Origin: a virus
Length of the DNA stretch: 64,000 bases
IMG/VR virus record: IMGVR_UViG_3300020445_000983
Location: 20,880-84,879 of that record
Strand: one strand, 5' to 3'
Below, piece after piece: positions 42,739 to 58,888 of this stretch. The translations under genes were made by a program, and so were the position numbers. The notes beneath the pieces are model-generated. The model did no database searches, was not told the DNA's origin, and saw only the letters and a program-made list of their open reading frames with translations. Each line of letters starts with the position of its first letter. Position 1 is the stretch's first letter.

Positions 42739-43413
42739 CTAAAGTAGAGGAATAAGCGAGAATTGGTCATCTGGGAGTGTAGGTTCTGTTAGAATATCAA
42801 AACCCAATGTTATCCTAGGTGAATCATCATAGTCTTCATTAACAACAACTCTGTGCATCCTTTCCCATCCTGGTCCAAAATATATGTTACCAACTACGTT
42901 CTCTATGTTATATTTAAGAGACCCTTGTTTGAATTCTGTTGTACTATTTTTAGGATCAATACTTACATATCCGTGATAAGGAAAATGATGATCGTGCCAT
43001 TTCAATACTTCATTTTGCTTATGAAAGTTCATCCAACATTGCATCCACAATGGTTGATTGTTGCCTAAAGTATCACGAACTACTTGTTTTATATTCTTAA
43101 ATAAGAACCAATATAATGGTGAGGGTGATGTTAAATTAAATACATTATAAAATCTATATCCAGACATATCTGCCTCTGCCATTTCTTTTATGGTACCCTT
43201 ATCTTCTGCTGATGTATCACTGAACAGCGTAGGTAATGCTGATAATGTAAAATTATCACTCTTTAAACTACTATCACATCCTGTAAATGTGTTTTTAAAT
43301 AGTCTATAACTACGTCCTAATTGTGTAATCATTTCTTGTTGCTCACGTTGAACAACTTCAGCACGATACAGTACCCAGTCGTCACCCTTTTCAATTAGAT
43401 TTAAATCAGACAT
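42739..43413 (-). CDS. 2OG-Fe(II) oxygenase-like protein, HxH type
   Basis: 224 residues. LKWHDHHFPYHGYVSID puts His140-x-His142 in the iron-binding turn; the distal His is probably His187 (WERMHRVVV) and the 2OG-binding Arg is Arg200 (SPRITLGFDI). The N-terminal half is helical and unlike the neighbours. It overlaps the upstream oxygenase gene by eight bases. Family PF13759-like; substrate unknown. Confidence 0.65.
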   Translation of the reverse strand: MSDLNLIEKGDDWVLYRAEVVQREQQEMITQLGRSYRLFKNTFTGCDSSLKSDNFTLSALPTLFSDTSAEDKGTIKEMAEADMSGYRFYNVFNLTSPSPLYWFLFKNIKQVVRDTLGNNQPLWMQCWMNFHKQNEVLKWHDHHFPYHGYVSIDPKNSTTEFKQGSLKYNIENVVGNIYFGPGWERMHRVVVNEDYDDSPRITLGFDILTEPTLPDDQFSLIPLL

Positions 43414-44020
43414 TACTATATGCTCCGTTGGTTGGTGGTGTATCTTTTGAAAGATTTATATTAACAACTGGTCTCCATTTTGTTGATGGAGTTGTTGATG
43501 AGTGGAATAAATCACCTTGAAATATGACAGCACGTCCTTTCTTTGGTGGTATTCTAGTCATTTCAGTGAACTCACCCTTGCTAAGAATAGATTGATATTC
43601 TTGATCGCTTAAGGTACGCTCGTTGTAAATAACTGTATCGCCATCACTGTCATCAATATAATATACCACATTCCAAGAATCCTTAACATAACTATCAATA
43701 TGGGGTAATTGTATATGATTAGCGAACATATTGGGGACACAATTTATTCGCATACGCATCAAATTGTAGCATTTAACTTGCTCCATTGCCATAAGAGATA
43801 AGGGAGTGAAAGCATTACATAAGGGTGACAGATTCCCTCCTTTATCCATTTCAAATAGATAATGAAAATTACAGAAACCATTGCGAGGATCTCCCTCCAG
43901 TTCCTCCATAATGGCACTGTCCTTCCTATGCCACGTTAGATTCTCATCTTTAATTAATGCTATCAACCATTCTTGATAGATTGGTGGTATGAGATCATCC
44001 ACCACATAAAAGTCATTCAT
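43406..44020 (-). CDS. 2OG-Fe(II) oxygenase, HxD type
   Basis: 204 residues with a complete triad: His107-x-Asp109 (LPHIDSY), distal His173 (FQGDLFHSSTTP) and Arg183 (KWRPVVNINL). The ILxYYxNDSDGDTxxY-type strand (VYYIDDSDGDTVIYNE) matches the proline-hydroxylase-like group. Its ATG overlaps the stop of the upstream oxygenase (ATGA). Clearly related in pattern to the gene at 47826. Substrate unknown. Confidence 0.8.
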   Translation of the reverse strand: MNDFYVVDDLIPPIYQEWLIALIKDENLTWHRKDSAIMEELEGDPRNGFCNFHYLFEMDKGGNLSPLCNAFTPLSLMAMEQVKCYNLMRMRINCVPNMFANHIQLPHIDSYVKDSWNVVYYIDDSDGDTVIYNERTLSDQEYQSILSKGEFTEMTRIPPKKGRAVIFQGDLFHSSTTPSTKWRPVVNINLSKDTPPTNGAYSNV

Positions 44021-44730
44021 AAGAGTTCAACCTCAGCAAGATCATCTTCATAATTTTCTTCAATTTGTCCAGGTCCCTCAGCAGGTCCATAGTACACGTC
44101 ATTATTTTGTCTTCGTTGACAAGTAATGACCTCCTCACTTGCTGACTCCCAAGGTGCTGCAAGCATTGGTCTACCATCATATTTTAGTCTAGCATACTCT
44201 CCATTTTGCTCTACGTATGAAACAAAGCACTGTATCTGTGACCCCTTCCCTTCATACTTCTCTCTCCAATGTAAATCCTCGTGTCCTCTGAATATACAAG
44301 AATCACCCTCATTTAGAAATATCTCATATTTTTTATTCTGTACTATTATTTGCATTGCCCAAGGATAGTCTGGATCTTCACTAACACATATATTACCAAC
44401 CCATTCACCTGACATTCTATCTCTATGTTTGACGCAAGATGTACCCTCAACATATAATCTACCATAACAAAATGTCTGCCATAATGGTATGTTACCTATA
44501 ATCTTCTCAACTATTGGTTGTTGATATTGTCCTAGTGCTTCAAAACATACAGGGCAGTACATACTCCAAGCACCAGGCATTGTGGGATCTCCCAGGTCAG
44601 CATTGGGATATTGCCATTTAATTACATCCTTCATCATATGATATTCCATTGCTACGTGTTTACATAGTTCTTTTGGTATCATATTACGAACGATCCACAT
44701 TCGTCCTTCGATAATAGTTTCTATATTCAT
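44017..44730 (-). CDS. 2OG-Fe(II) oxygenase-like protein
   Basis: 237 residues. His102-x-Asp104 (CVKHRDRMSGEW), and a GDSCIFRGHEDLHW segment whose His150 or His154 would be the distal ligand. The usual Arg is not obvious (GKGSQIQCFVSYV). The C-terminal 40 residues are polar and acidic (GPGQIEENYEDDLAEVE). ATGA overlaps at both ends show tight coupling in the operon. Confidence 0.65.
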   Translation of the reverse strand: MNIETIIEGRMWIVRNMIPKELCKHVAMEYHMMKDVIKWQYPNADLGDPTMPGAWSMYCPVCFEALGQYQQPIVEKIIGNIPLWQTFCYGRLYVEGTSCVKHRDRMSGEWVGNICVSEDPDYPWAMQIIVQNKKYEIFLNEGDSCIFRGHEDLHWREKYEGKGSQIQCFVSYVEQNGEYARLKYDGRPMLAAPWESASEEVITCQRRQNNDVYYGPAEGPGQIEENYEDDLAEVELL

Positions 44731-45356
44731 ATTGCCTTCGCAAAGAATACTAAGGTGAGTCTACCAGTAGTTATATTATCACCAAAGAAGTCACCAGCAG
44801 AGTGATACTTTTGACCATCAAATAACAGGCATCTATTATATCTTGCCTCACATATAGTATTTGAAGTAAATGGTCTATTCTTCTCTCTTATCATCTTATT
44901 ACCTTCAGCACGCACATCTTCATCATCAGTTAATACATTAGATTTGAAGTCCTCAGTATACCCTACTCGGTCATCATTCTCTGGTACATCATATAATATA
45001 GTACCACACCCATTTGTATAAGTTTCGTTCAAATATATCATTCCACCTACACCAAACTGTGCAGAGTCTCGATGTACCCAACCACAGTCGTAATTACCAG
45101 TACAAAGATGAAACGTAGACTCTAATCTTTCGAATTGAGTATATCCAGGTAGATAATCTATGAGTTTAGAACATAATCTTTGATGGAAATGATAGTCTAA
45201 TTCGTGTAACAAATGACTTGATCTTTTCCCTGGCCAATTACCTTTAGCAGGGTGATCTTTGCACACTAAGTAATCTAAACTAAGTGCCCAGTTCCTAATC
45301 ACAGAGGGCGTTTCAAAGAAATTGTCTATTATTACTGTAGGAATTTGATTGGGCAT
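44727..45356 (-). CDS. 2OG-Fe(II) oxygenase-like protein (DUF6445-like)
   Basis: 209 residues. His95-x-Asp97 (GWVHRDSAQ), His185 (FDGQKYHSAGDFFG) and Arg199 (TGRLTLVFFAK) complete the facial triad and the 2OG-binding site. The N-terminus VIIDNFFETPSVIRNWAL resembles the DUF6445 group, which I have seen next to halogenases. It overlaps its upstream neighbour by 25 bases. Substrate unknown. Confidence 0.72.
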   Translation of the reverse strand: MPNQIPTVIIDNFFETPSVIRNWALSLDYLVCKDHPAKGNWPGKRSSHLLHELDYHFHQRLCSKLIDYLPGYTQFERLESTFHLCTGNYDCGWVHRDSAQFGVGGMIYLNETYTNGCGTILYDVPENDDRVGYTEDFKSNVLTDDEDVRAEGNKMIREKNRPFTSNTICEARYNRCLLFDGQKYHSAGDFFGDNITTGRLTLVFFAKAI

Positions 45357-46033
45357 TGTGGTCGGTCACCAAACATTAGGGTCTTAGATAGATGAGGGAT
45401 GAGATTCTTGAGGTTAACTCGCTTCTCACCCATATCTATTCGTTCTTGTGTAGGTTTAGATTTCACTAAACGGTACTCTTGCATCATATTATTCTCTTGA
45501 TAAAATGCAACACGATAGATAGGATCACCTCTCTTAATTATAAGAGGTTTAGTTCTATCTATTATATCAACTGCAAATGACAGTGGTCTCTCCCATTGAG
45601 ATAAGTTCCACCTCCCAGAGATCAGATTGAAATTATTATTGAGTGCTGTGAGTCCTGTATCCTTCTGCTCTACCCATATATTCTTTGCCTTTGTCCACAT
45701 CATAATCTTAGGGATGAACATTTGTATTGAAGGATGTATATGCCAATCCTTAATTGGTAATACAAATCTATCAAATAGTCCTACAAGATTAGGTGAGTTG
45801 ATACTCTGATTCTCATAATCAAACTCTAATGTTAAATCTCTAGGTGCATAGACAGTGAACTCTCTCTTTGTTAAATGTGACCAAGCAGGGCATTTATAGT
45901 ACTTTAATTCATTAGTCTTCTCATCAATATGTCTTGTTGGTTCAATCCCAACACCATCTATCTCTAATGATGACTTGAGAGCATCATAAGCACCACCTTC
46001 GAATTGATAATAATATATGTCAACCATTGCCAT
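45332..46033 (-). CDS. Unknown protein, paralogue 1 of three (DUF6065-like, tentative)
   Basis: 233 residues, beta-rich. The pattern YYQFEGGAYDA, KCPAWSHL, REFTVYAPRDL, NNNFNLISGRWNLSQW, IIKRGDPIYRVAFYQ is shared with the gene at 47300, and more distantly with 49525. No catalytic motif is seen; the ending VxKRGDPIYxxxFYQ looks like a cupin-like or jelly-roll strand pair. DUF6065 is my best recollection of the family and needs a search. The HNH gene overlaps its start by 14 bases. Confidence 0.6.
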   Translation of the reverse strand: MAMVDIYYYQFEGGAYDALKSSLEIDGVGIEPTRHIDEKTNELKYYKCPAWSHLTKREFTVYAPRDLTLEFDYENQSINSPNLVGLFDRFVLPIKDWHIHPSIQMFIPKIMMWTKAKNIWVEQKDTGLTALNNNFNLISGRWNLSQWERPLSFAVDIIDRTKPLIIKRGDPIYRVAFYQENNMMQEYRLVKSKPTQERIDMGEKRVNLKNLIPHLSKTLMFGDRPQCPIKFLQ

Positions 46034-46544
46034 TCTTTTTCCTTTGACTGGAATTACCTAATGGTGATGTCCATCTTAAATTATCAATATGATTATTTGA
46101 CGTGTCTGCGTCAATATGGTCAACATAAGCAGATTCTCTTACAAATTGCTTCATTGATTCAGGTGACTTATCCCAATCTGCTTTAGGAACAGGTGGATGC
46201 TCATCAATAGGTTCCCAGGTCTCCTTTACCGCTCTATGATATCTAATATTAACTTTACTGTGTTTTGAACTAACTTGTCCTGCACCATTGGTGGATGCAA
46301 CATAATCATATTCCTTAAAGAATCCTATAGGAACACTCAAATTAACAGCAAGAGGTCTAGCATATGTTCCTTTTACCCCACGCTCTTCAACTAACTGTTT
46401 TCTTGTATGATCTAACATTTTGGGAGTACCTCTTCCCTTTGTTCGTTTGTTGCTAAGAATTTTACCACACTTACTCACATAATAATCTGGTATTTCCCTT
46501 CCCTTATGAATGAGTGGTTTGAACTCGATGTTGTTAAAAAGCAT
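46020..46544 (-). CDS. NUMOD4-HNH homing endonuclease
   Basis: 174 residues from the ATG at 46544. NUMOD4-like N-terminus (IPDYYVSKCGKILSNKR) and a C-terminal HNH core, VDHIDADTSNNHIDNLRW followed by TSPLGNSSQRKKN. It is free-standing and lies exactly between two paralogous genes (47300 and 46033), overlapping the second, which looks like an insertion into the cluster. Such enzymes spread by cutting homologous loci that lack them. Confidence 0.85.
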   Translation of the reverse strand: MLFNNIEFKPLIHKGREIPDYYVSKCGKILSNKRTKGRGTPKMLDHTRKQLVEERGVKGTYARPLAVNLSVPIGFFKEYDYVASTNGAGQVSSKHSKVNIRYHRAVKETWEPIDEHPPVPKADWDKSPESMKQFVRESAYVDHIDADTSNNHIDNLRWTSPLGNSSQRKKNGNG

Positions 46545-46580
46545 TTTCAAATTGCAAACTATAGTAATTGTACCATAAAA

Positions 46581-47300
46581 TCAACCATTGAACAACCACC
46601 CGAAGGGACATTTCTCTTCCTTGTCTTTAAAGATGAGATCATCAGCAAGATGAGATTGAAAATGTTTCACCTTCATTCTCTTATACACATCTAATAGTAA
46701 TTCAGTATGTGGTCGTGCCTTCTCCATTTTAAATGTCTGGTCAAGATTGTCCTCTTGATAAAATGCTAATTTATAAATCGGATCTCCACGTTTAATAACA
46801 ACAGGTTCATTTGGATCACATATATTAAATCCAAATGATATTGGTCTACACCAAGATGATAAATTAAACCAACCATTTGTTAGTGTGAAATTATTATTAC
46901 GTGATGTCATTGGGTGATCTTTAACTTCAACCCATACTCTCTTTGATTCAGTCCAACATAGTACCATTGGACACATTATTTGAATTGTTGTTATCGGTGG
47001 TTTTTTATTTTCTACCTTAACATAATTATTAACCTCTTCATTGGTCATACTAGGTGAACCAACTGCACCTCTTTCATTATCAATATGCAATATTATTTCA
47101 CGAGGTGCATAAACTATAAACTCTCTTGAGTTCTTATGCCTCCAAGCAGGACATTCCCAATTGGGTGTATTCCCAGGTGAGTAAGTTTCGAGAACTTTTT
47201 TTGGTTCAAGACCAACTCCATCCACATCTATACAAGAATCCCAAGCATCAAGAGTATTATGTACTCCTTCATATTGATAGTAATTAATCTTGACAGACAT
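46581..47300 (-). CDS. Unknown protein, paralogue 2 of three (DUF6065-like, tentative)
   Basis: 239 residues. It aligns by eye with the gene at 46033 over its whole length: YYQYEGVHNTLDAWDS, ECPAWRHKNSREFIVYAPRE, NNNFTLTNGWFNLSSWCRP, VVIKRGDPIYKLAFYQED. The C-terminus ends KEEKCPFGWLFNG, close to RPQCPIKFLQ of the paralogue. It overlaps the upstream oxygenase by 17 bases. It probably arose by tandem duplication before the HNH insertion. Function unknown. Confidence 0.6.
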   Translation of the reverse strand: MSVKINYYQYEGVHNTLDAWDSCIDVDGVGLEPKKVLETYSPGNTPNWECPAWRHKNSREFIVYAPREIILHIDNERGAVGSPSMTNEEVNNYVKVENKKPPITTIQIMCPMVLCWTESKRVWVEVKDHPMTSRNNNFTLTNGWFNLSSWCRPISFGFNICDPNEPVVIKRGDPIYKLAFYQEDNLDQTFKMEKARPHTELLLDVYKRMKVKHFQSHLADDLIFKDKEEKCPFGWLFNG

Positions 47301-47826
47301 AGTTGAAATTAATGACGATTCTATTTGTAGCGAGGGTAGGACAGGACGATGCGTGCATTTTTAAACCATCAAAAATAACGAGTTTCCCCTTCTCTGGTTT
47401 AATGGTTTGCTCAATCTCACCATTCTTTGCAAAAAAGTGAGTATCACCGTCAGAATCATTCACATAATACAGTGCTGTAGTATGTGGAATCTCTGCATCT
47501 ATATGTGGCATATTATAACCTATCCTTGTAGGTAATAGCAACCCTCCCTTAACTCTCAGTAGTTCGTGTTTAGGAGTTGGGACAAACGAGAGAAAAAGTG
47601 GAAATAAAAAATCCCAATATTGATCCTCTATCTTATTATCTCTATCGTAGAACATATGTGCAAATCCTGGAGTGCTCTGAGCATTAGGATACCTGCTCCT
47701 CATCTCACTGGTGTAAGCATATGTTACATCACTCAATAGATGCCAATCAAATCTAACATTGGACATCATTGAATGAATCTTGTCCTGATATAGTTCAGGT
47801 ATAATATCTCTTCTTACTTCAATCAT
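47284..47826 (-). CDS. 2OG-Fe(II) oxygenase, HxD type
   Basis: 180 residues from the ATG at 47826 (MIEVRRDIIPELY); the open frame extends 13 residues further into the upstream gene. Triad His108-x-Asp110 (MPHIDAEIPH), His158 (FDGLKMHASSCP) and Arg169 (TNRIVINFNY). The strand ALYYVNDSDGDTHFF matches the gene at 44020, so these two are probably sister genes. Substrate unknown. Confidence 0.8.
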   Translation of the reverse strand: MIEVRRDIIPELYQDKIHSMMSNVRFDWHLLSDVTYAYTSEMRSRYPNAQSTPGFAHMFYDRDNKIEDQYWDFLFPLFLSFVPTPKHELLRVKGGLLLPTRIGYNMPHIDAEIPHTTALYYVNDSDGDTHFFAKNGEIEQTIKPEKGKLVIFDGLKMHASSCPTLATNRIVINFNYVCQD

Positions 47827-48472
47827 TGCCACCGTACATAATTGCAAGACAGACTCTATCATCATCTGACTGTGATGGTTCTGTTCTATGTTTCAACCAA
47901 CCAGGAAATACCAGGACATCACCCGTTTCAACGGGTATAGTTTTCCACAGATCTAACTGTGGTTCTCCAGGTGATCCCCATCTATGATATTCATAAGGAT
48001 CTCTAAATTGAAAGTGCCCTGAATTAGTAGAGTGCTTAAGATATGCAGAGATAACTAAAGGACAACCATTGTGGTGGTGCTCCATAGTCATTCCACTTCT
48101 CTTGTGTGTATTAACCCAAGATCTAATAGGTACAGGTTGACCACTACCATAATCCCAGTGATTCCACAATGCGTGGAGATATGGTTGCATATGATTTATA
48201 AATGGTTGCAGTATCTCCCAGTAATGTGGTTGATGCTCAACATTATATGCAGTTGAGAAAGCATTACCAGTTTCTAATGCTGCACCAGTACCAGTATTTT
48301 GAATGGTATGGTCAATTAGTTTTCCACAATGCTCTTGCAATGATGTACCATCATATTTAAAATCATATTTAAATCTCCACAACCAGTGTGGAGATACAGG
48401 AATAGTTTCTTGCTCTTTTAATATGTCAAGCAGATGTCCCACCAATAACCTCCATTTCTTCGGTACCTCCAC
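47819..48472 (-). CDS. 2OG-Fe(II) oxygenase-like protein, HxH type
   Basis: 217 residues if started at GTG (48472), which overlaps the upstream gene by 47 bases; no ATG start exists in the N-terminal part, so the start is uncertain. GMTMEHHHNGCPLVISAYL places His132-x-His134 in the iron turn; the distal His is His195 (FPGWLKHRTEP) and Arg206 follows (DDDRVCLAIMYGG). The FPGWLxHxTxP segment is shared with the gene at 62923. Confidence 0.7.
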   Translation of the reverse strand: MEVPKKWRLLVGHLLDILKEQETIPVSPHWLWRFKYDFKYDGTSLQEHCGKLIDHTIQNTGTGAALETGNAFSTAYNVEHQPHYWEILQPFINHMQPYLHALWNHWDYGSGQPVPIRSWVNTHKRSGMTMEHHHNGCPLVISAYLKHSTNSGHFQFRDPYEYHRWGSPGEPQLDLWKTIPVETGDVLVFPGWLKHRTEPSQSDDDRVCLAIMYGGND

Positions 48473-48737
48473 CAGTCTGGTCGAGATCAGTTAATGATGG
48501 CATTGCAGTATCAGAGTCATCACCTAATACATCTCTCTTACATATTAACAGTGCATCAATAGCACCTTCAAGTTGTGACTTACGTTTAAATGCGTCACTA
48601 CGCTTCTCAAATTCGATAGTGGTAACACCATAAGGATTTAGTTTCTTATCACTAAACTCCTTATCATAATTTTCAATATCTACATCACACTGTTGCTTCT
48701 GTAGATAGAAGTTTTGTATAAGTTCATCAATAGTCAT
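48426..48737 (-). CDS. Small hypothetical protein
   Basis: 103 residues, MTIDELIQNFYLQKQQCDVD, helical, with a polar acidic C-terminus (DLDQTGGGTEEMEVIGGT). A GTG start for the next gene lies inside it. Function unknown. Confidence 0.6.
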   Translation of the reverse strand: MTIDELIQNFYLQKQQCDVDIENYDKEFSDKKLNPYGVTTIEFEKRSDAFKRKSQLEGAIDALLICKRDVLGDDSDTAMPSLTDLDQTGGGTEEMEVIGGTSA

Positions 48738-49525
48738 AGTTTTTCTCCGTCAGAGTGGTACTTAATGGTTTTCATTGCACGTGATATTCTACCTTGTACA
48801 TTGTCGTGAATCATATATTCCGACTTGATAGAATAATTAAATGCTGCTTCTAACTCCCAGTCTTTAGCATTAGCAGGTTCTTGAACTACATCATACCAAT
48901 CTCTTTCGAGGTAAGTTCTGGGTATTGGTATATATTGTGCTATAGGTGTACCTGCTTTAACAAGTGTACCTTCTGGACCTGTGTCCATTTCGTGCCACAT
49001 TAACTGCACATTCATTTGTAGTGCAAAGCGTGGATCGAATACACCAGTAACTGCTTCAAAGCGTGATTCATTATTCCAATGAACTGGTGATTGTAGCATC
49101 ACAATATCATCAGATGCTCTAACCCTCCAAGGTAATTCCATCTTAATAATATGTGCAAGAGTATCTCTTGGACTATCTATCAATGGCATTACTTGTTCAG
49201 GTGCGTGATCTGAAATGTAGTTGCTGTGTCTCTGGAATGTATTTGGTACTTCATATTGAAATGACATACCATCACCATTAGTAATTATAATGAAATCCAT
49301 TGGTGCAACAACTGTCCAACCAAGTCGGGCAATCTGCTTAATACCAGGACAATTTGAAGAGTTCTGTGATCCTTGTAATGGGCACCTTCTCTTCTTGACA
49401 GCAGGATCTAACCACTGTCTCTTAACTTTGCTGGTTGGTATCAGTGGATAGCACTCAGCAAGACCAGGTTCTAATGAATAGAATCTAACCCAAGGTTTCT
49501 TCTTTTTGAAGAAGTTAAAATTCAT
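48734..49525 (-). CDS. Unknown protein, divergent paralogue 3 (DUF6065-like, tentative)
   Basis: 263 residues. Same order of motifs as the genes at 47300 and 46033, but diverged: a Cys-containing KRRCPLQGSQNSSNCPG, TVVAPMDFIIITNGDG, SRFEAVTGVFDPRFALQMNV, LVKAGTPIAQYIPIPRTYL. The last resembles the VxKRGDPIYxxxFYQ strand of the paralogues. Its start overlaps the preceding stop. The xKxGxPIxQxxP motif is the best reason for the DUF6065 idea. Function unknown. Confidence 0.55.
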   Translation of the reverse strand: MNFNFFKKKKPWVRFYSLEPGLAECYPLIPTSKVKRQWLDPAVKKRRCPLQGSQNSSNCPGIKQIARLGWTVVAPMDFIIITNGDGMSFQYEVPNTFQRHSNYISDHAPEQVMPLIDSPRDTLAHIIKMELPWRVRASDDIVMLQSPVHWNNESRFEAVTGVFDPRFALQMNVQLMWHEMDTGPEGTLVKAGTPIAQYIPIPRTYLERDWYDVVQEPANAKDWELEAAFNYSIKSEYMIHDNVQGRISRAMKTIKYHSDGEKL

Positions 49526-49713
49526 CTTTCTAACTTCTCCTCTACTATATCCATAAGATGCTCAAACTCTTTAAGATGCTCTAAATCATATAGTAACTTA
49601 GATATTTGAGTTACAACCAATGGTTTTTCATTAGTAGCAGCAGACTTAATTGCTGATCTGATACTCCCTTCTGCTTCAAGTAAGTAGTCTAATGTTTGTT
49701 TAGATAGTGCCAT
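49522..49713 (-). CDS. Small helical hypothetical protein
   Basis: 63 residues, MALSKQTLDYLLEAEGSIRS, continuing as amphipathic helices (LLYDLEHLKEFEHLMDIVEE). It lies two bases after the halogenase stop, clearly in the same transcript. I recall similar short cyanophage proteins; no function is known. Confidence 0.65.
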   Translation of the reverse strand: MALSKQTLDYLLEAEGSIRSAIKSAATNEKPLVVTQISKLLYDLEHLKEFEHLMDIVEEKLER

Positions 49714-49715
49714 AA

Positions 49716-51359
49716 TTAATCAATAAGTTCAGGTCTGATGTCATCTCCCTTGTAGATGTTATCACGTAGGTATTCATAATGAGATGGACATTCATCACTG
49801 GTAACGAAATCCTCCACCTCTTTAGTATACTCTAGATGCTTCTGTTCGAGATATTCTAATTCTTTAGGATCACGTGGATTATAATAATCCTTGCCTAATA
49901 TCATACCATTTCCTGCTGCCACATAATTCATCCCACCCATTCCTGTGTCCAAACCGTGATCCAGATCTAGTGCACTTCCCAGGCGTTCATAATTGTCATT
50001 GATACGTATAAGTCCATCCATCTCTTTCCATAGGTACTCATTAATTTGAGTACACCATCTCCAATATGGATTATCATCACGTCCACTAAGTGCATAGTGC
50101 ATAGCAACGAACTTATTGAATCCTATTACCTCACGTTGAGCAGAATAGTTAAACCATTGCCGTTCAAGTCTGGTAATATATCCTCTTCTTCTGTTGAGTA
50201 CATCAACAAGTCTAAGGATATTCTCGTGTGTGGTTAATAGTCCTGTTGACTCTAATGGTTCAACAAAACCGTATGATAACCCAATACCAACAACATTCAA
50301 GTTCCACGCTTTCTCGTGATATCCATTCTTAACATCAACCTCCTTCACTTCATACTCGTCAGGAGTGACACCAAACTTGTTCTGTATCCAAGTTTCAAAC
50401 TCAGGTATTACCTCAGTGCTCATTGCAAATCGTGATGACCAACAATAACCAACTCCTACTCTATCCCATAGAGGTATAGTCCACGCCCAACCATTTGACA
50501 TTGCCTGGCAATCAGTCACGCAGTGCATTATCTCTTCACGTTCTTCCTGTGTCTTATAAGGAATACGTGCATATAATGCTCTATCATTAGCAAGGTCATC
50601 AAACTTATTAAACCTAGTACCTAACTGTTGTTCTAATAGTACACTAGAGAATCCAGTGCAATCAACAAATAGGTCACCAACAACACCAACTGTTCTCTTA
50701 TCTTCAATCAAACGAACAGCAAGTTGTTTAATAGTTCTATTAGACTCAGCAGGTGATCCACCTCTTACAATATCTTTAACGGTACCACGTACTTCACCTA
50801 CAATATGTGTGAATCTACCTTCATATTGATAGCATACATTCTCACGTAAATACTGACCAAACTTCTCAGCATCTAAATGATATGCTACCTCAGTTCTCCA
50901 ATCAAAACTTCTAAACCTATTGTCTCTATTATCCCACTGTTTGTTATGTTTAACTAATGCACTCTGCTCTGTATTATAGAACTCAGCGAATGTCCCAGGT
51001 GTCCATTTTTCAGGGTCATTACGTGCTAAATCAAACCAGTCATTAAGTCCTTTAATCTTATCTATAAAATCAAACTCTCCAAATGGATACTGGAATGTTT
51101 CCCCTATTTGACTGAAATCAGTGAACTGAATACTATTTTTATATGTTGCATTACAGTATGGCATCCAGTCCTCATCTTTGAGTCCTAATGCAATCAAATA
51201 CTTATTAAAATGTCCTAGTGTACTCTCACCTACACCTATTGGTGGTTTATCACTTTCGATTAATACTACATTAACCCACGGACACAACTTCAGTAATGCA
51301 GCAGCAGTCATCCATCCAGATGATCCACCACCAACAATAACAACATTTTCAACCTTCAT
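49716..51359 (-). CDS. Flavin-dependent tryptophan-halogenase homologue
   Basis: 547 residues, full length for the family. FAD-binding GGGSSG at 10-15 (VIVGGGSSGWMTAAAL), the catalytic-type Lys74 in NATYKNSIQF (equivalent by pattern to Lys79 of PrnA), WAWTIP at 291-296 and FVEPLESTGL at 365-374, whose Glu367 matches the active-site Glu, are all present. These enzymes use FADH2 and O2 to make a hypohalous acid that halogenates an aromatic substrate; a flavin reductase partner is not visible in the window. The cyanophage Syn10 homologue VirX1 prefers iodide. It is preceded by a terminator and three TATAAT hexamers, so it probably starts its own transcript with the oxygenase genes behind it. Substrate unknown. 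Confidence 0.9.
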   Translation of the reverse strand: MKVENVVIVGGGSSGWMTAAALLKLCPWVNVVLIESDKPPIGVGESTLGHFNKYLIALGLKDEDWMPYCNATYKNSIQFTDFSQIGETFQYPFGEFDFIDKIKGLNDWFDLARNDPEKWTPGTFAEFYNTEQSALVKHNKQWDNRDNRFRSFDWRTEVAYHLDAEKFGQYLRENVCYQYEGRFTHIVGEVRGTVKDIVRGGSPAESNRTIKQLAVRLIEDKRTVGVVGDLFVDCTGFSSVLLEQQLGTRFNKFDDLANDRALYARIPYKTQEEREEIMHCVTDCQAMSNGWAWTIPLWDRVGVGYCWSSRFAMSTEVIPEFETWIQNKFGVTPDEYEVKEVDVKNGYHEKAWNLNVVGIGLSYGFVEPLESTGLLTTHENILRLVDVLNRRRGYITRLERQWFNYSAQREVIGFNKFVAMHYALSGRDDNPYWRWCTQINEYLWKEMDGLIRINDNYERLGSALDLDHGLDTGMGGMNYVAAGNGMILGKDYYNPRDPKELEYLEQKHLEYTKEVEDFVTSDECPSHYEYLRDNIYKGDDIRPELID

Positions 51360-51376
51360 AAGAATTAATCCTCTTC

Positions 51377-51409
51377 ATTATATAGGGCATTATATAGATC
51401 CATATTATA
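51377..51409 (-). promoter_or_regulatory. Triple TATAAT region before the halogenase
   Basis: On the minus strand TATAAT occurs at 51404-51409, 51389-51394 and 51377-51382. The last two lie in a perfect 10-base direct repeat CTATATAATG with a 12-base period. No good -35 is visible. Confidence 0.5.
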
Positions 51410-51413
51410 CCAG

Positions 51414-51438
51414 AAAATCCCCCCATTGGGGAGATTTT
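51414..51438. terminator. Hairpin between fibre genes and halogenase
   Basis: AAAATC, a mismatch, CCCC, loop ATT, GGGG and GATTTT pair as a 6+4 stem, with T-rich flank on the minus strand. It lies after the stop of the gene at 51463 and could work in both directions. Confidence 0.55.
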
Positions 51439-51462
51439 GGTAATTAGATCAGATTGATATTT

Positions 51463-51987
51463 TTATGTGCCTAGTTCATCATAGGTACGACCCCATCCTG
51501 AGAAACGTTCCCAGATTGGTGCATCTATTGTAGCACGTTTTGCTGGTCTTGTCGTTGCTGGTTCAGCAGCATCACCCATAAAATCAGCAATTTCATCATC
51601 AGTCATCGTTGGATCCATTGGTTCCGCTACAGATGATGGTGATGTTGTGTTCTCTTTAATTGCTTTGATGTGATTAAACCACAGAGCATCTCCAGCATCT
51701 AATGCTTTACCTGCTGCTAGGTCTTTGTATAACATATCCAATTGTTCCCCGACCTCACCATAAGCAACTTTGCGAATGGTACCAGGATCTGAGTATGCGT
51801 CAGTACGCTTAACCCATATTGCATCATTAGCAGAAGGAGACCATTCTAGTGTCCAATCTTTTGTGATGTCATCAGGTGCATTAACCCACATTTGGGAACA
51901 ACCACGTCCTAAGAATAGTACGTACTCTTCACCAGGGTCTACGATGTCGGCAACTGCGCCGTTGAAATCCATTAATGCTTTCTTCAT
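51463..51987 (-). CDS. Fibre-associated protein with chaperone-like motif
   Basis: 174 residues. The segment IRKVAYGEVGEQLDMLYKDL followed by KALDAGDALWFNHIKAIKEN resembles a motif found near the end of many phage fibre or fibre-assembly proteins (YxxxGEQLDMLYxDL...W..HI..IK). The C-terminal part is Ala/Pro/Asp-rich. It is the last gene of the fibre block, before the terminator. Structural part or assembly factor cannot be decided here. Confidence 0.55.
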   Translation of the reverse strand: MKKALMDFNGAVADIVDPGEEYVLFLGRGCSQMWVNAPDDITKDWTLEWSPSANDAIWVKRTDAYSDPGTIRKVAYGEVGEQLDMLYKDLAAGKALDAGDALWFNHIKAIKENTTSPSSVAEPMDPTMTDDEIADFMGDAAEPATTRPAKRATIDAPIWERFSGWGRTYDELGT

Positions 51988-51994
51988 TGTTCCC

Positions 51995-52795
51995 CTATTT
52001 GTAGTTGATAACGCAGACTACACCATATTTACCGTTAGATCCACGGAAACTATGGAAGTGTCCACCTGATCCACCAGCACCATATGCAGCGTGGTCTTGA
52101 TGGTTATGACTGAAGTTACCACCATTTGGCCAACCACCAGCAACTGAACCACCGAAGTGAGATGTACCTCCGATTCCTCCACCACCACCGTGGTGAGATT
52201 GTCCACCTCCACCCCAGACATTCAAGTCTCCACCAGAACCATTACGTCCTAGTCCACCTGAGTGTCCACTGTTTCTATTAGCACCGTGTCCACCACCAGC
52301 AGATAGGTAAGGACCGAAAGATGATGAACCACCATCTCCACCGTGACCGAAGTACCAGGTACCTCCACCACCTCCACCGATTGATATACCAACGGAACCA
52401 ATACTATTAACGTCTAAAACTCTTTCAGAGTATCCACCAGCAGCACCTGATTCTCCGTGCCCTGACGCTCCTCCTCCACCTCCTTGTACTCGTACGTGTA
52501 TGTACTTGACACCAGATGGTTTGTTCCAGGTACCGTTACCTGTCCATACTTGTAGTGATTGAATGTTCTCTCCACCTCCAGCAGCCCATTGCATCGATGA
52601 ACCGTCGTTAGAAAGAAATTTACCACTCTGACCTGACACCGAAGGTACAATCTGACTAGAAGATCCAGACATCGTACCATTAATGGTGATGTTACTGACT
52701 GTCAGTGCTCCGTTCGCTGTTATGTTACCTGAAGCAAGGGAGAATCCGCCAATGCCTGAGAGGTCTCTAATAGATGCAACTTTAAGTGTACTCAT
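51995..52795 (-). CDS. His- and Gly-rich tail-fibre adhesin candidate
   Basis: 266 residues. N-terminal fibre-like part (IRDLSGIGGFSLASGNITAN), then VWTGNGTWNKPSGVKYIHVR, followed by about 130 residues of Gly-rich sequence with short GGGGGG runs, like the polyglycine sandwich of T-even gp38-type adhesins. At least 13 His lie in it (SHHGGGG, FSHNHQDHAAYG, GGHFHSFRG). It is probably a receptor-binding tip; the His may bind metal. Late promoter TATAAATA lies 25 bases upstream. Confidence 0.75.
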   Translation of the reverse strand: MSTLKVASIRDLSGIGGFSLASGNITANGALTVSNITINGTMSGSSSQIVPSVSGQSGKFLSNDGSSMQWAAGGGENIQSLQVWTGNGTWNKPSGVKYIHVRVQGGGGGASGHGESGAAGGYSERVLDVNSIGSVGISIGGGGGGTWYFGHGGDGGSSSFGPYLSAGGGHGANRNSGHSGGLGRNGSGGDLNVWGGGGQSHHGGGGGIGGTSHFGGSVAGGWPNGGNFSHNHQDHAAYGAGGSGGHFHSFRGSNGKYGVVCVINYK

Positions 52796-52819: not shown

Positions 52820-52827
52820 TATTTATA
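52820..52827 (-). promoter_or_regulatory. Late promoter TATAAATA
   Basis: Perfect late motif on the minus strand, 25 bases before the ATG at 52795. Confidence 0.7.
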
Positions 52828-52830
52828 CAA

Positions 52831-53409
52831 TTAGGTTGGGCGAGTATAACCTTCTGGTAGGAAGGGTTGATCTCTGTCCCATTGATCATCATCTGGTTTG
52901 TAACTATCGTGATAAGTTACTTGTTGTGTTTTTGGTGCTACAAATGAATCAGGAGTGTCATCATCAATACCAATAGTTATATTTAGGGTATCATTAATGA
53001 CTTCATTCTCCTCATTACACCAAAATAACATATCGTAGTTTTCACCTGATTCCAGATTTTTGATGTTGAAGTCTGTTAAAAATGCTTCATTAGACTTCTC
53101 TGGACCCACCCACTCGTTAGAGTAAACTACTTCTTTCACTTCTTTAGATTTATCAACGTTCTCAATGACTCGTTGAATTGTAATACCATACCTAAGATTA
53201 ACAAAGGTACAATCCATACTATGATTTTTTCTAAAACCTATTCTACACTGTACATCTGGATGAGTAACCTGATATCCACTGATCTCACATACATTACGTG
53301 CGAGATGAAAACATACAGTTATTAAATTAGGTCTGTCGTCATACTTAATCGGTTGACCTTCAATATAAACGTAATCGTCGTGATCTGTTGCGGGATTTTG
53401 TGTTGCCAT
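52831..53409 (-). CDS. Hypothetical virion-associated protein
   Basis: 192 residues, beta-rich (YVYIEGQPIKYDDRPNLITV, CRIGFRKNHSMDCTFVNLRY), acidic towards the end (NEENEVINDTLNITIGIDDD). It lies between the two glycine-rich fibre genes, six bases after the first. Probably structural; not recognised. Confidence 0.6.
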   Translation of the reverse strand: MATQNPATDHDDYVYIEGQPIKYDDRPNLITVCFHLARNVCEISGYQVTHPDVQCRIGFRKNHSMDCTFVNLRYGITIQRVIENVDKSKEVKEVVYSNEWVGPEKSNEAFLTDFNIKNLESGENYDMLFWCNEENEVINDTLNITIGIDDDTPDSFVAPKTQQVTYHDSYKPDDDQWDRDQPFLPEGYTRPT

Positions 53410-53415
53410 AATATC

Positions 53416-54387
53416 TTAAGGTAATTTGTAACCGAATACAATGACACCAGTTTCACCGTTACAGTCACCAGCACCATTGCGTCTACCATTAGGATCACTA
53501 CCTGGTGAACAGTTACTACCTGCCCAAGTACCTCCTCCTAATCCTTGTCCTGTGAGATCTCCCTCATCAGCACCTGCCCAATTGGATCCACCACCGCCAC
53601 CAGCAGCACCATTGCAGTCACAACCTGGATTACCACCGCAATTTCCTGCACGATATCCACCGCCACCGCCACCTCCTCCAGAGGCATCGTTACCTGGTCT
53701 TCCACACTCATCACCATTTGAGTCACCATTATTTCCAGTCGCTCCACCTTGAGATCCACACTGTCCGTTGGATCCTCTTTGACCACCAGCACCACCGTGA
53801 CCTGCACCACTACATCCTTCTCTACCTCCTCCACCGCCGCCACCAGCACCGACGAGTTTCACATTACCCATACCCCAACCATTTAGGAAGACCATAGAAG
53901 CAGCACCGCCTCCACCTCCTCCAGCAGAGCATCCACTACAAGAAGCGTGAGTACCATTACCACCTGTACCATATCCTGAACTATTAGAACCGCCGCCACC
54001 GCCGCCCCAACATCCATAACATCCATTACCTCCACCACCGCCTCTACCGACAGCAGTGTACAATATATTTCCTGCCTCTACAGTAATGGTAGTACGAGCA
54101 CTACCTCCACCGCCTCCATTATTTCCTCCTTGACCACCTCTTCCACCAGCAGCACCCCACGCCCAAATGGTAATAGCACCACCTGCACTAATATTTAACT
54201 GTGAGGTTCCACCTGATTGAAATCTATGAAATCTATAAGTTCCGTCTGCAAATCCTTCGTTCCACTCAGAACCACCAGATGCTTGTACATAACTGAATGA
54301 TGCTCCTCCACCCCCACCTTGACCACCTGTTGCACTAGGTCCAGAGGCAGTAGGAATGAATTTTGCACTCATACCAAAACGTCCCAT
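53416..54387 (-). CDS. Cys- and Gly-rich tail adhesin candidate
   Basis: 323 residues. After a short lead (MGRFGMSAKFIPTASGP) and a beta segment FADGTYRFHRFQSGGTSQLN, most of the protein is Gly-rich with runs of Gly and 12 Cys (NGCYGCWGG, HASCSGCSAGG, AGNCGGNPGCDCNG). The end GETGVIVFGYKLP matches the usual end of phage Gly-rich fibre proteins. AAGGAG precedes the ATG. It probably forms a polyglycine-type tip; the Cys could form disulfides or bind metal. Confidence 0.75.
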   Translation of the reverse strand: MGRFGMSAKFIPTASGPSATGGQGGGGGASFSYVQASGGSEWNEGFADGTYRFHRFQSGGTSQLNISAGGAITIWAWGAAGGRGGQGGNNGGGGGSARTTITVEAGNILYTAVGRGGGGGNGCYGCWGGGGGGSNSSGYGTGGNGTHASCSGCSAGGGGGGAASMVFLNGWGMGNVKLVGAGGGGGGGREGCSGAGHGGAGGQRGSNGQCGSQGGATGNNGDSNGDECGRPGNDASGGGGGGGGYRAGNCGGNPGCDCNGAAGGGGGSNWAGADEGDLTGQGLGGGTWAGSNCSPGSDPNGRRNGAGDCNGETGVIVFGYKLP

Positions 54388-55272: not shown

Positions 55273-55280
55273 CTATTTAG
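55273..55280 (-). promoter_or_regulatory. Candidate late promoter CTAAATAG
   Basis: CTAAATAG on the minus strand, overlapping the stop of the gene at 55277 and 21 bases before the ATG at 55252. Confidence 0.5.
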
Positions 55281-58200
55281 ATTACCAGTTCCCTAATCTG
55301 GATCACGTCGGTAGCAGCAGGTGCTGTACCAATACTAAAGTCAACGGCATTACCTGTAACTGTATAGTCCAGACCTGGAATCTGTGCTACACCATTAAGG
55401 AATACGAGTACTGAATATGCTGTGTGACCAGGAGATATGGCAAAAGATGCTGTTGATCCATTACCTTGATATGTCACACCGTTATTGCTGTTGGCAACAC
55501 CTGTTGCAAGAGTGTATTTGTCAGCAGCACCATAATTACCTGTAACGTCTATGTTACCAGTGATGGCAACGTTACCTGTAATTCTCATTCTATTAGAAGC
55601 ATCTGGTGCTTCACCAATACCGTAGTTGGTGACACCACCAAATCTACGTGAAGTAATAGGTGCAGTATCGGTCATACCGAACTTGTACCATATACCTGTC
55701 TCATAGATCCAACCTAATGAATCACCTGCTTCCCAGTCTATATTATAAACTAGGTCACCATCATTAAATGCTAGTGCAGAGTCAACGTCAGGATTACCAG
55801 AACCATCATCTGATGCTAAGAATGTCTGTCTTAATACAGTACCATCATTATTAGAGTATGTTAGTAATAGTGTCTGGATGTTCTCTTGTGCATTGATTCT
55901 CTTCTGGAAGGTAACAGGACCTGAGAATACTGATTCTAACTGGTTAGATGCACCACCAATTACAGTTAATTTGTCAGTCAGAACAACCTCAGAAAATGTC
56001 TGAATGGTTGTGTTCTCTTCACCCAACACGTTAAGTTGAGCAATATCCTCGTTAGTGATCTGACCTGTAACTGGGTTGATAACCTGGTTACCAACGAATA
56101 GTTCACCATCACTGTTAACACCAGAGTAGTATGCAACTCCTGCTGATTCTTTCAGTGACTGTGACAGTCTAACCTGTTGTGGTGTTAGCACCTCCACCTG
56201 TGTAGATGGGAATGCAGTACTATAGTTACCTGGTCCGAAACCTAGGTACTCAAACGTATGTCCAGATGCTCTAAGGATAGAGTATCTTCGCAGTTCACAT
56301 AATATAGGTGCAACTGAGTTGTCAGCATTTAGTTTGAGTGCAATCTTTCTCTCTTCCTCATCACCTAGTCTTGCTGTTACTACTATATTATTAAGAGTAT
56401 TAGCAGTAGTATTGTATCCTAGGTTGTTTTCTGTCTCTAGTAGGAAGAATTGAGTACTTTCTTTTGTAACTGATAGTTGCTTATCCTCGTTAGGATTAGG
56501 TGAAGCACCATCAGTAGTTGTAACTCTACCTAAAATTTCATTATCAGCAATAGAGATAGAAGGAGCAGGGTCTGCTAGTGGGTTATCTCTGTCAAATGTA
56601 GGATAAACATCTACTTGGTTCTGTGAGAATGCGAAATCATCAAAGTTTGATGTAGCAGGAGATACGGATGCGTTCAAGAATGTTAGATAATATATACCAT
56701 CCTTAACACCACGTTCAAACTCCTGATATGTTTCTACCTCATAGATGTAGTATGTTTTATCATAGGCAGGTGAGTTTGTTTCACTAGATCTTGGTTGTAC
56801 CACGAAACCTGTAATAGGTACTCTAGGTACTGGGAATGAATCCTTGTCTAGTACATATCTGAAACGATAAATTCTATCCTTAAGGTCTCTTGCGTCTGGA
56901 ACTCTTCGAACAAATGTCGTAGGAGTAAATCCAAGGTTATTATATTGTGAGTTAGCAATCAGTGTAGTATAGATATCGTTATTTGCACTATCTACCTGAA
57001 CATACCAGTTAGACTGGTTCTGATCAAACTTGATTGGTGAAGCATCATCTCCAGGAGATGTACCTGTAACTTCTTTTCCAGAAGGATCAAACTTTGCACT
57101 ATGTGTTGTAGGTTCTTGTGCACCAGCAGCAATCAATAATACGTTAAGATTATCTGGTACCGTTGGTGAATCTCTTCTAGCACCTACAGTATAACCCTGT
57201 ACCTTACTTGGTGGTTTCGCATTCTGGTTGGTATATCCATATAAGAATAGTTTTGTTGGGTCTGCTGCTGCCTTGATCTTCTGTATATCTAATGTTACCC
57301 AGTTAATTGATATCTCTGGGACATCACTTAATGACTTAGGTGGTATAACGTGAGTGAGTTGACCCGCTTTATCCTTAGTAAACGATGCTGACTTAAATCC
57401 TTTTGATCTAAGAGAAGTGTTTCCAAAGTTTGAGTTTGAGTTCGTGATTGAGAGGTCTCCTCCACTATCAGAGAAGAAGTGGTCACCGAATCCAACGGCG
57501 AACACCGAGACGACCTGGATAAATGCGTCGTTACTTGCGTATATGTGTCTATTTCTCCAACCCTTACGATACTTGGACAGTCCATCGATGTGTGCACCTG
57601 AACCTGCTGCTTGTGCTTCATAGTTTCCAGTAGATGCGTTGTATTTAACAAATGCTCTATCGTCTTTCTGTAGTGAGATACCAGTAAACTGGGCAACAAC
57701 CATTGATTTGAAACCAGTTGCTTGAGCACCATCAGCGTGCATACCATTTATACCCCAAACTGATCTTAGTGAACAGTTGAATACATATGGAGATGCTGAG
57801 TCAACAGTGTCAATCTCAACTTTAACCAGTACGTTACTACCAATAGCATTACCTGTTGGTTCCGAGGACATCTGATAGGTAAACTGGTTACCCTGTGCAG
57901 ATGTTACAAGGAATGATCCATTATAAAGATTAGAGTCTGCCTCAGTTGGACCAGTAACACCAGCAATATTAACTGCAACACCAACAGAGAAACCGTGGTT
58001 GATCGGGTTATCTTGAATGTCAACAGTAAATGCTGTAGCAGTTTGTCCATTTCTAATAATCTGAGATACTCTAAATTCATCAGAAATTGGACCAACGATT
58101 CTGTTCTCTTCAACTCTTGCTTGTAATTGGTCTTGAGCGATAGTACCTGAAGTATCAGGAATTGTAGCGTATGCCTTCGAAATCTTTTGATAGTACAGAT

Positions 58201-58852
58201 CTAGGTCTGTAATATTAGCGTACTCAAAACAAGTTAACTTATGATGAGAAAAGTTTGGAGCAATAGTGTCAACAATATCAGGACGATAGTAAACTCCATT
58301 ATTGTCACCGTCAAAGAAAGACTGTTGCCAGAAATAACATCCACCAGTTAGTTTGAATATACCAGAGGCAGATGGTTCGTTAGCAGTTGTAATACCAAGT
58401 GATGCTTGTGTTGTAGGATATGGTACATATTTCGGTACTATCTTAGTACGACGTAAGTCAGATCCAACAACAGAACAACCTCTGGGAACAATGATTCCAC
58501 CGTTAACTGAGTTAAACTTATGGAGAATATTGTTAGAAGAGGTTAGATCGAAATTTGTATTTTCATCAAATGGTGTAATTTCAGTGTACTGTGCAGTACC
58601 AGGTCTATTATCAATTACATACTCAGAAGGATAGAGGTATATACTAAATGCGTCAAATTCGTCATTACTAAGTCCAACTCTATATGAAAATCTAGATACT
58701 TCAAGAAAGGCACGTTGTAACGTCTTAAATGGACGCAAAGCAGAGTTACCTCGGTTGTCGTATGCATCCGATGCATCAAAATCGTCGGGGTTGACGTATA
58801 TAATACGACCAGTCCTCGACGTGATGATATTCTTAAGACGGGTTAATGCCAT
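55277..58852 (-). CDS. Large virion structural protein, tail/fibre
   Basis: 1191 residues. The N-terminus (MALTRLKNIITSRTGRIIYV, then NPDDFDASDAYDNRGNSALR and PFKTLQRAFLEVSRFSYRVG) is a familiar start of large cyanophage structural proteins and, with later beta repeats, suggests a right-handed beta-helix part. The C-terminus VLVFLNGVAQIPGLDYTV, then VDFSIGTAPAATDVIQI is a module also found in the giant protein. Late promoter GATAAATA lies 24 bases upstream. Location in tail or fibre is inferred from neighbours. Confidence 0.75.
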   Translation of the reverse strand: MALTRLKNIITSRTGRIIYVNPDDFDASDAYDNRGNSALRPFKTLQRAFLEVSRFSYRVGLSNDEFDAFSIYLYPSEYVIDNRPGTAQYTEITPFDENTNFDLTSSNNILHKFNSVNGGIIVPRGCSVVGSDLRRTKIVPKYVPYPTTQASLGITTANEPSASGIFKLTGGCYFWQQSFFDGDNNGVYYRPDIVDTIAPNFSHHKLTCFEYANITDLDLYYQKISKAYATIPDTSGTIAQDQLQARVEENRIVGPISDEFRVSQIIRNGQTATAFTVDIQDNPINHGFSVGVAVNIAGVTGPTEADSNLYNGSFLVTSAQGNQFTYQMSSEPTGNAIGSNVLVKVEIDTVDSASPYVFNCSLRSVWGINGMHADGAQATGFKSMVVAQFTGISLQKDDRAFVKYNASTGNYEAQAAGSGAHIDGLSKYRKGWRNRHIYASNDAFIQVVSVFAVGFGDHFFSDSGGDLSITNSNSNFGNTSLRSKGFKSASFTKDKAGQLTHVIPPKSLSDVPEISINWVTLDIQKIKAAADPTKLFLYGYTNQNAKPPSKVQGYTVGARRDSPTVPDNLNVLLIAAGAQEPTTHSAKFDPSGKEVTGTSPGDDASPIKFDQNQSNWYVQVDSANNDIYTTLIANSQYNNLGFTPTTFVRRVPDARDLKDRIYRFRYVLDKDSFPVPRVPITGFVVQPRSSETNSPAYDKTYYIYEVETYQEFERGVKDGIYYLTFLNASVSPATSNFDDFAFSQNQVDVYPTFDRDNPLADPAPSISIADNEILGRVTTTDGASPNPNEDKQLSVTKESTQFFLLETENNLGYNTTANTLNNIVVTARLGDEEERKIALKLNADNSVAPILCELRRYSILRASGHTFEYLGFGPGNYSTAFPSTQVEVLTPQQVRLSQSLKESAGVAYYSGVNSDGELFVGNQVINPVTGQITNEDIAQLNVLGEENTTIQTFSEVVLTDKLTVIGGASNQLESVFSGPVTFQKRINAQENIQTLLLTYSNNDGTVLRQTFLASDDGSGNPDVDSALAFNDGDLVYNIDWEAGDSLGWIYETGIWYKFGMTDTAPITSRRFGGVTNYGIGEAPDASNRMRITGNVAITGNIDVTGNYGAADKYTLATGVANSNNGVTYQGNGSTASFAISPGHTAYSVLVFLNGVAQIPGLDYTVTGNAVDFSIGTAPAATDVIQIRELVI

Positions 58853-58875
58853 TTACTTAATGAACCTTATGTTTA

Positions 58876-58883
58876 TATTTATC
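58876..58883 (-). promoter_or_regulatory. Late promoter GATAAATA
   Basis: GATAAATA on the minus strand, 24 bases before the ATG at 58852 and just after the stop of the upstream gene. Confidence 0.65.
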
Positions 58884-58888
58884 CCGCC

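Follow-up and report, generated by a model that had tools for sequence, protein, structure and literature searches.

A VirX1-type flavin-dependent halogenase in a T4-like cyanophage and its gene coupling to a small tail-fibre-locus protein with a conserved C-terminal tryptophan

In flavin-dependent halogenases (FDHs), FADH2 and O2 form a hydroperoxide; this oxidises halide to HOX, which moves on to a lysine, and lysine and glutamate then direct attack on an aromatic ring. Annotations of such enzymes in cyanophages go back to the earliest genomes of the T4-like group: prnA is listed in several T4-like cyanophages and a tryptophan halogenase in 20 of 153 cyanophages. VirX1 of cyanophage Syn10 (CPUG_00131, PDB 6QGM) has been put to use as a biocatalyst. 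It is a trimer with a preference for iodide, properties known for VirX1 only, and according to reviews it is without the helical lid that narrows tryptophan halogenases and accepts bulky substrates. A different arrangement is found in SrpI, which brominates a C-terminal tryptophan of its substrate guided by an N-terminal leader, and leaders of this kind can be structured proteins. In the open-licence literature we found no paper that names a natural substrate of VirX1 or of the cyanophage halogenases. Here, we describe a halogenase gene in a 64,000-nucleotide stretch of a viral genome from IMG/VR (the window) and its coupling to a small protein with a tryptophan-bearing tail, a coupling that as far as our searches show is undescribed in the open-licence literature. 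The conserved tail tryptophan and the strict coupling make the natural substrate of VirX1-type enzymes directly testable.

The gene lies at 49716..51359 on the minus strand (ATG at 51359, stop at 49716) and encodes a protein of 547 aa that is almost certainly an FDH of the active type. The initial annotation had called it a phage-encoded flavin halogenase related to VirX1, and family membership is far beyond chance: the Pfam family Trp_halogenase (PF04820) matches with an E value of 1.3e-82 (278.5 bits against a cut-off of 21 bits), PHROGs assigns phrog_2928 ‘tryptophan halogenase’ (E 3.7e-127) and the best PDB sequence match by phmmer is VirX1 (E 4.8e-142, residues 1–537 of 547 aligned), with 45% identity over the full length. 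No other Trp_halogenase match occurs in the whole 84,879-base IMG/VR record. The structural comparison with VirX1 that had been proposed alongside the annotation gave the same answer. An AlphaFold2 model built from 38 sequences (the window and viral contigs; mean pLDDT 88.8) superposes on 6QGM with TM 0.89/0.93, and the top six Foldseek matches are the six VirX1 chains of that entry (TM 0.88–0.89 by query, 0.92–0.93 by target). Tryptophan halogenases follow, at 25–28% identity in the structural alignment; the sequence alignment with most of them ends at around residue 435–440, and residues 445–453 of the model are of low confidence. Purifying selection acts on the gene, as judged from its substitutions: comparison with a 99% identical contig gives dS 0.059 and dN 0.004, and in the comparison with a 73% relative, for which dN is 0.22, synonymous sites are close to saturated.

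Every sequence hallmark of an FDH (PF04820, variant A) was found in the protein. The GxGxxG dinucleotide (FAD) motif is GGGSSG (residues 10–15, 51315..51332, minus strand), in which G10, G12 and G15 are invariant in 33 phage halogenases, and WxWxIP is present as WAWTIP (residues 291–296, 50472..50489, minus strand). The catalytic lysine, equivalent to PrnA K79, is Lys74 (51138..51140, minus strand); its column is lysine in 34/34 phage halogenases aligned. The catalytic glutamate before serine in Fx.Px.SxG falls within FVEPLESTG (residues 365–373, 50241..50267, minus strand). In the alignment with PyrH, residues 74 and 370 correspond to residues 75 and 354; Lys75 and Glu354 form the catalytic pair of that enzyme. 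The claim of an intact active site is thus borne out for the FAD motif, Lys74, WAWTIP and FVEPLEST, but the glutamate had been misnumbered. Glu367, the residue named, is the first glutamate of the motif and is ruled out as the catalytic one by the PyrH alignment and by the residue order in PrnA, where catalytic Glu346 is flanked by Leu345 and Ser347; the catalytic residue is Glu370 (codon 50250–50252). Lys74 and Glu370 are invariant in 38 viral VirX1-type proteins, and VirX1 has the same catalytic pair. GenBank numbering of Syn10 puts the VirX1 lysine at position 75 and a review calls it K79, a difference that we take as a numbering offset.

Glu370 is kept in all 34 aligned phage halogenases except those of S-PM2 (L026:7995-9470) and Syn1 (L027:7995-9431), which read FLEPLQATS and so have glutamine in its place. 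The E346Q mutation makes PrnA approximately 100-fold slower, hence these two enzymes may, by analogy, be impaired or have a different role. They also lend some substance to the idea that the window protein is a flavoprotein that no longer halogenates and has a binding or other monooxygenase role. We give this very little credence, given that all motifs are intact, Lys74 and Glu370 are invariant among close relatives, selection on the gene is purifying and VirX1, the closest enzyme that has been characterised, is active. Catalysis by the window enzyme is predicted on these grounds, and any preference for iodide would be inherited from VirX1 by homology only.

The initial annotation had seen no flavin reductase and assigned FADH2 supply to the host. 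Profile searches for three reductase families (PF01613, PF03358 and PF00175) agree, finding none in the record of the window or in 18 complete or near-complete genomes of halogenase-carrying phages; the same searches were positive in most of 14 control genomes, including Synechococcus elongatus. Because the three families are absent from all 19 phage records, the FADH2 for the halogenase probably comes from the host. PrnA, PyrH, RebH and Thal share the superfamily and motifs with the window enzyme but differ in this setting, as the window has neither a biosynthetic cluster nor a reductase gene of the three families.

By gene content the source genome is a T4-like cyanomyovirus; its baseplate wedge protein shares 57% identity with the one from Synechococcus phage S-SZBM1 and 56% with the P-RSM6 protein. 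Relatives of the halogenase were found in 64 phage records, mostly of Synechococcus and Prochlorococcus phages, and in at least 587 viral-contig stretches. A tree that included 26 cellular relatives puts the VirX1-type enzymes, together with their tandem paralogues, in a single group (33 viral rows and one metagenome bin, support 100) separate from the cellular FDHs; the window halogenase belongs to a starred set of seven viral rows that also contains Syn10 VirX1 and S-CREM1. From sequence, the enzyme is an orthologue of VirX1 and ordinary among cyanophages; since such halogenases are common there, it only adds a member to a known type. The best cellular match has 34% identity and comes from a Deltaproteobacteria MAG (JABDFK010000005.1; L244) that falls inside the viral clade, and this contig may be misbinned or an integrated phage. 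Many relatives carry a tandem halogenase pair, an A copy of approximately 490–507 aa followed by a B copy of the VirX1 type; in the window, as in its 99% relative, B stands alone. In Syn10 (L003:6488-9593, HQ634191), VirX1 itself (CPUG_00131) is labelled ‘hypothetical protein’ and its tandem paralogue CPUG_00132 bears the halogenase name; we found no report on the A copy in the literature.

The genes around the halogenase are all on the minus strand and begin, in transcriptional order, with two tail-fibre genes at 55277..60790 (phrog_693 at 58889–60790 and phrog_529 at 55277–58852), a glycine-rich tail-fibre-like protein (53416..54387; by composition and a weak match to phrog_1589) and an ORF at 52831..53409 with no family match in Pfam or PHROG searches. 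A T4-type late-promoter-like sequence found by motif search, TATAAATA (52820..52827, minus strand), then stands just upstream of the first gene of a late unit, a glycine-rich tail-fibre tip protein (51995..52795; phrog_863 ‘tail fiber assembly’, E 2.4e-51). A search of the 64-kb window for the extended form of the motif TATAAATA gave only three copies, each of them on the minus strand. The tip gene is followed by a gene for a protein of 174 aa, the halogenase, a 63-aa ORF that begins 2 bp after it (49522..49713, phrog_1179) and a 263-aa protein (48734..49525, phrog_7084). The phrog_7084 family is found almost exclusively alongside VirX1-type halogenases: it matches 15 phage records, 14 of which have the halogenase adjoining, and the remaining match, in S-RIM4, is weak. 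Its product could be a second partner of the halogenase.

Downstream of phrog_7084 is an array of 2OG-Fe(II) oxygenase genes on the same strand, starting with 47819..48472 (PF13759, E 4.5e-14) and 47284..47865 (PF13640, E 2.1e-6). The second also matches phrog_274, for which the label ‘DNA endonuclease V’ is misleading in view of the Pfam match. In PHROG and Pfam searches the rest of the array (42739..47300) contains two phrog_17480 genes, an HNH endonuclease (46020–46550), a DUF6445/2OG-like gene (44727–45356), a ‘ferrochelatase’-like phrog_2954 gene (44017–44730) and two 2OG-like genes (43406–44020 and 42739–43413), and most genes of the array overlap by 4–47 bp. The HNH endonuclease sits between the two related phrog_17480 genes, like a homing-type insertion.

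The order of tail fibres, glycine-rich fibre genes, fibre tip, 174-aa protein, halogenase, phrog_1179, phrog_7084 and 2OG-Fe(II) array recurs in S-CREM1, Syn10, Sf-FR1, S-RIM44, P-TIM40 and many viral contigs, and without phrog_7084 in S-SZBM1, S-WAM1 and P-RSM6. The window therefore matches the locus of VirX1 itself, where CPUG_00133 is the small protein, from fibre tip to 2OG array and differs in having a single halogenase in place of the tandem pair and a 103-bp gap with a terminator-like hairpin. A general rule that the halogenase always stands beside fibre and 2OG genes was considered and fails in S-B64, S-MbCM6, S-PM2, Syn1 and P-SSM2.

Such surroundings invite the proposal that halogenase and 2OG-Fe(II) array form a fibre-maturation cassette whose targets are the glycine-rich fibre or adhesin proteins. 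The small protein would then serve as a chaperone or adaptor to present the fibre, its tail tryptophan being where the enzyme docks. A phrog_863 fibre tip lies no more than 0.7 kb upstream of the halogenase in 9 of 19 records searched (8 complete phage genomes and the record of the window), and 8 of the 10 2OG genes in the S-CREM1 genome are just downstream of its halogenase. In the freshwater cyanophage S-SRM01 (L031:8007-10588), a distant halogenase has a tail fibre on one side and an annotated gp37-gp38 adhesin tip on the other, which is a second, divergent link between halogenase and adhesin. In addition, a version of the small protein without the tail follows the fibre tip in halogenase-free phages, suggestive of a basic role with the fibre. 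We nevertheless regard modification of the fibre as rather improbable: 2OG and fibre genes occur together without a halogenase too, and they accompany the halogenase less strictly than the small protein does. We know of no halogenated fibre.

The small protein is encoded at 51463..51987 (minus strand) and consists of a phrog_1787 domain (about residues 1–115; E 2.6e-21) and a halogenase-associated tail. A tblastn search with it found 20 phage records, 20/20 of which also carry a VirX1-type halogenase. With the 174-aa protein as the sole query, viral contigs gave at least 90 loci, and in 90/90 of these, the best matches to the window protein among the matches listed, the halogenase is the next gene downstream at a gap of 371 bp or less. 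The coupling is less tight when loci are collected from the halogenase side: five have one or more genes between partner and halogenase, and in locus L079 the partner gene is on the opposite strand. Furthermore, the halogenases of S-B64, S-MbCM6, S-PM2, Syn1, P-SSM2 and HTVC008M have no partner alongside, which suggests that it is dispensable for some phage FDHs. The partner has no PDB match at an E value below 1, and its homologues in BFVD come from phages only, with syn9 Gp40 the best.

This coupling bears on the usual literature proposal for cyanophage PrnA, in which the halogenase is an auxiliary metabolic gene that acts on free tryptophan, indoles or other small aromatics in an antibiotic-like or signalling role. 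VirX1 does halogenate many small heterocycles in vitro, some other phage FDHs have metabolic genes, psbA and talC for example, around them, and a published annotation proposes protection by chlorotryptophan or a pyrrolnitrin-like compound, which it calls speculative itself. VirX1-type genes, however, are in the tail-fibre locus, tied to one small protein in all 90 best-match loci, other pyrrolnitrin genes were not seen in the annotated neighbourhoods and VirX1 was identified outside any biosynthetic cluster. A small-molecule substrate is for these reasons unlikely.

The tail of the partner provides a more specific indication. In an alignment of 54 representatives (halogenase loci, <85% similarity), the phrog_1787 domain ends in a [VI]K motif, after which the tail extends for 19–116 residues (median 56); in the window it covers residues 112–174 (51466..51654, minus strand). 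The tail is poorly conserved, with a mean pairwise identity of 24% versus 44% for the domain. Even so, it contains a tryptophan in 53/54 representatives, with L079 as the sole exception, and one tail column is tryptophan in 96% of the 54 rows, compared with 76% for the next best. This column is Trp159 in the window (codon 51511–51513). Its context varies by subgroup (PCWERYSNW, PAWKRYPGW, DPAWNHLP, GRASWDPW and PAWLG). The block around it is fairly ordered in the AlphaFold2 model (pLDDT about 87), and given this fair confidence the residue may instead be structural (packed) or a docking site.

Where no halogenase is adjacent, phrog_1787 proteins (from S-RIM2, S-RIM4, S-B64, S-ShM2, Syn33, P-RSM1, P-RSM4, Syn1 and viral contigs) end 5–10 residues past the [VI]K motif and have no tryptophan there in 18/19 cases, the exception being a weak homologue in S-CAM4. 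Those of halogenase-free phages such as S-RIM2, Syn33 and P-RSM1 have the same domain in the same place after a glycine-rich fibre tip as the window protein, but neither its tail nor the tail tryptophan. Such tail-less proteins follow a glycine-rich or annotated fibre-tip gene in S-RIM2, S-RIM4, S-B64, Syn33 and P-RSM1. As the domain still follows the fibre tip in halogenase-free phages, it probably serves the fibre in the first place, and the tail is an extra that accompanies the halogenase. On the domain tree, ‘tail + halogenase’ is a single change, hence the contrast between presence and absence of the tail represents one evolutionary event followed by long joint retention. Independent gains of tail and halogenase are unsupported, given that one change suffices.

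The pairing of a halogenase gene with one for a small protein that has a domain at its N-terminus and a conserved tryptophan near its C-terminus is the arrangement of leader-guided halogenation. SrpI and the RiPP halogenases MibH and ChlH are likewise FDHs, coupled to a small ribosomal protein whose N-terminal part serves for recognition and which has a C-terminal tryptophan, although the likeness is by arrangement only and the window protein comes from a phage tail-fibre operon and is not a known RiPP precursor. Taken together, the lidless structure of VirX1, the gene coupling and the tryptophan tail point to the partner, or to a complex that it presents, as the substrate. We therefore propose that FADH2 made by a host reductase would bind at GGGSSG and react with O2 and halide to HOX, which would reach Lys74, and that Lys74 would deliver X+ to an aromatic substrate with Glu370 assisting. 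The substrate would be a phage protein from the late tail-fibre unit to which the halogenase belongs, and the W159 tail of the 174-aa protein is the most likely candidate; recognition would fall to the phrog_1787 domain, by analogy with leader-guided RiPP brominases. Alternatively, the substrate would be a complex presented by the 174-aa partner.

We consider it an even call whether the substrate is a phage protein at all. For the explanation as a whole, an intact VirX1-type FDH that modifies the tail of its co-encoded partner, the chance is slightly less than even, and W159 as the halogenated residue is a tentative assignment that we would put a little lower. Extending it to the VirX1-type phage halogenases in general, as protein-modifying enzymes that each have a dedicated small protein of the fibre locus as target and halogenate the conserved tryptophan of its tail, is a similarly tentative generalisation. 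The initial annotation had suggested assays on peptides from the fibre proteins, which is a good direction, and the genomic evidence points first to the protein at 51463–51987. If true, the proposal would give the first case, to our knowledge, of a phage protein that is halogenated, and would identify the natural substrate of VirX1. Halogenation of the partner would also mean that phages are producers of halogenated proteins in sea water. For site-specific protein halogenation, the enzyme would then bring along a useful recognition domain that is genetically encoded.

In the window, the 103 bp between partner and halogenase (51360..51462, minus strand) contain the terminator-like hairpin at 51418–51434 (fold z −2.47; such sites number 5 in the region versus 1.8 expected), and co-transcription of the two genes may be interrupted there. 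The hairpin stands where many relatives have the A-copy halogenase and may mark the site of its loss. At the other side of the window, a giant ORF (3–22334, minus strand) of at least 7,444 aa fills the left third. It is repetitive-looking and continues beyond the left edge, so that the left 22 kb is not gene-poor but a single giant ORF running off the end of the window.
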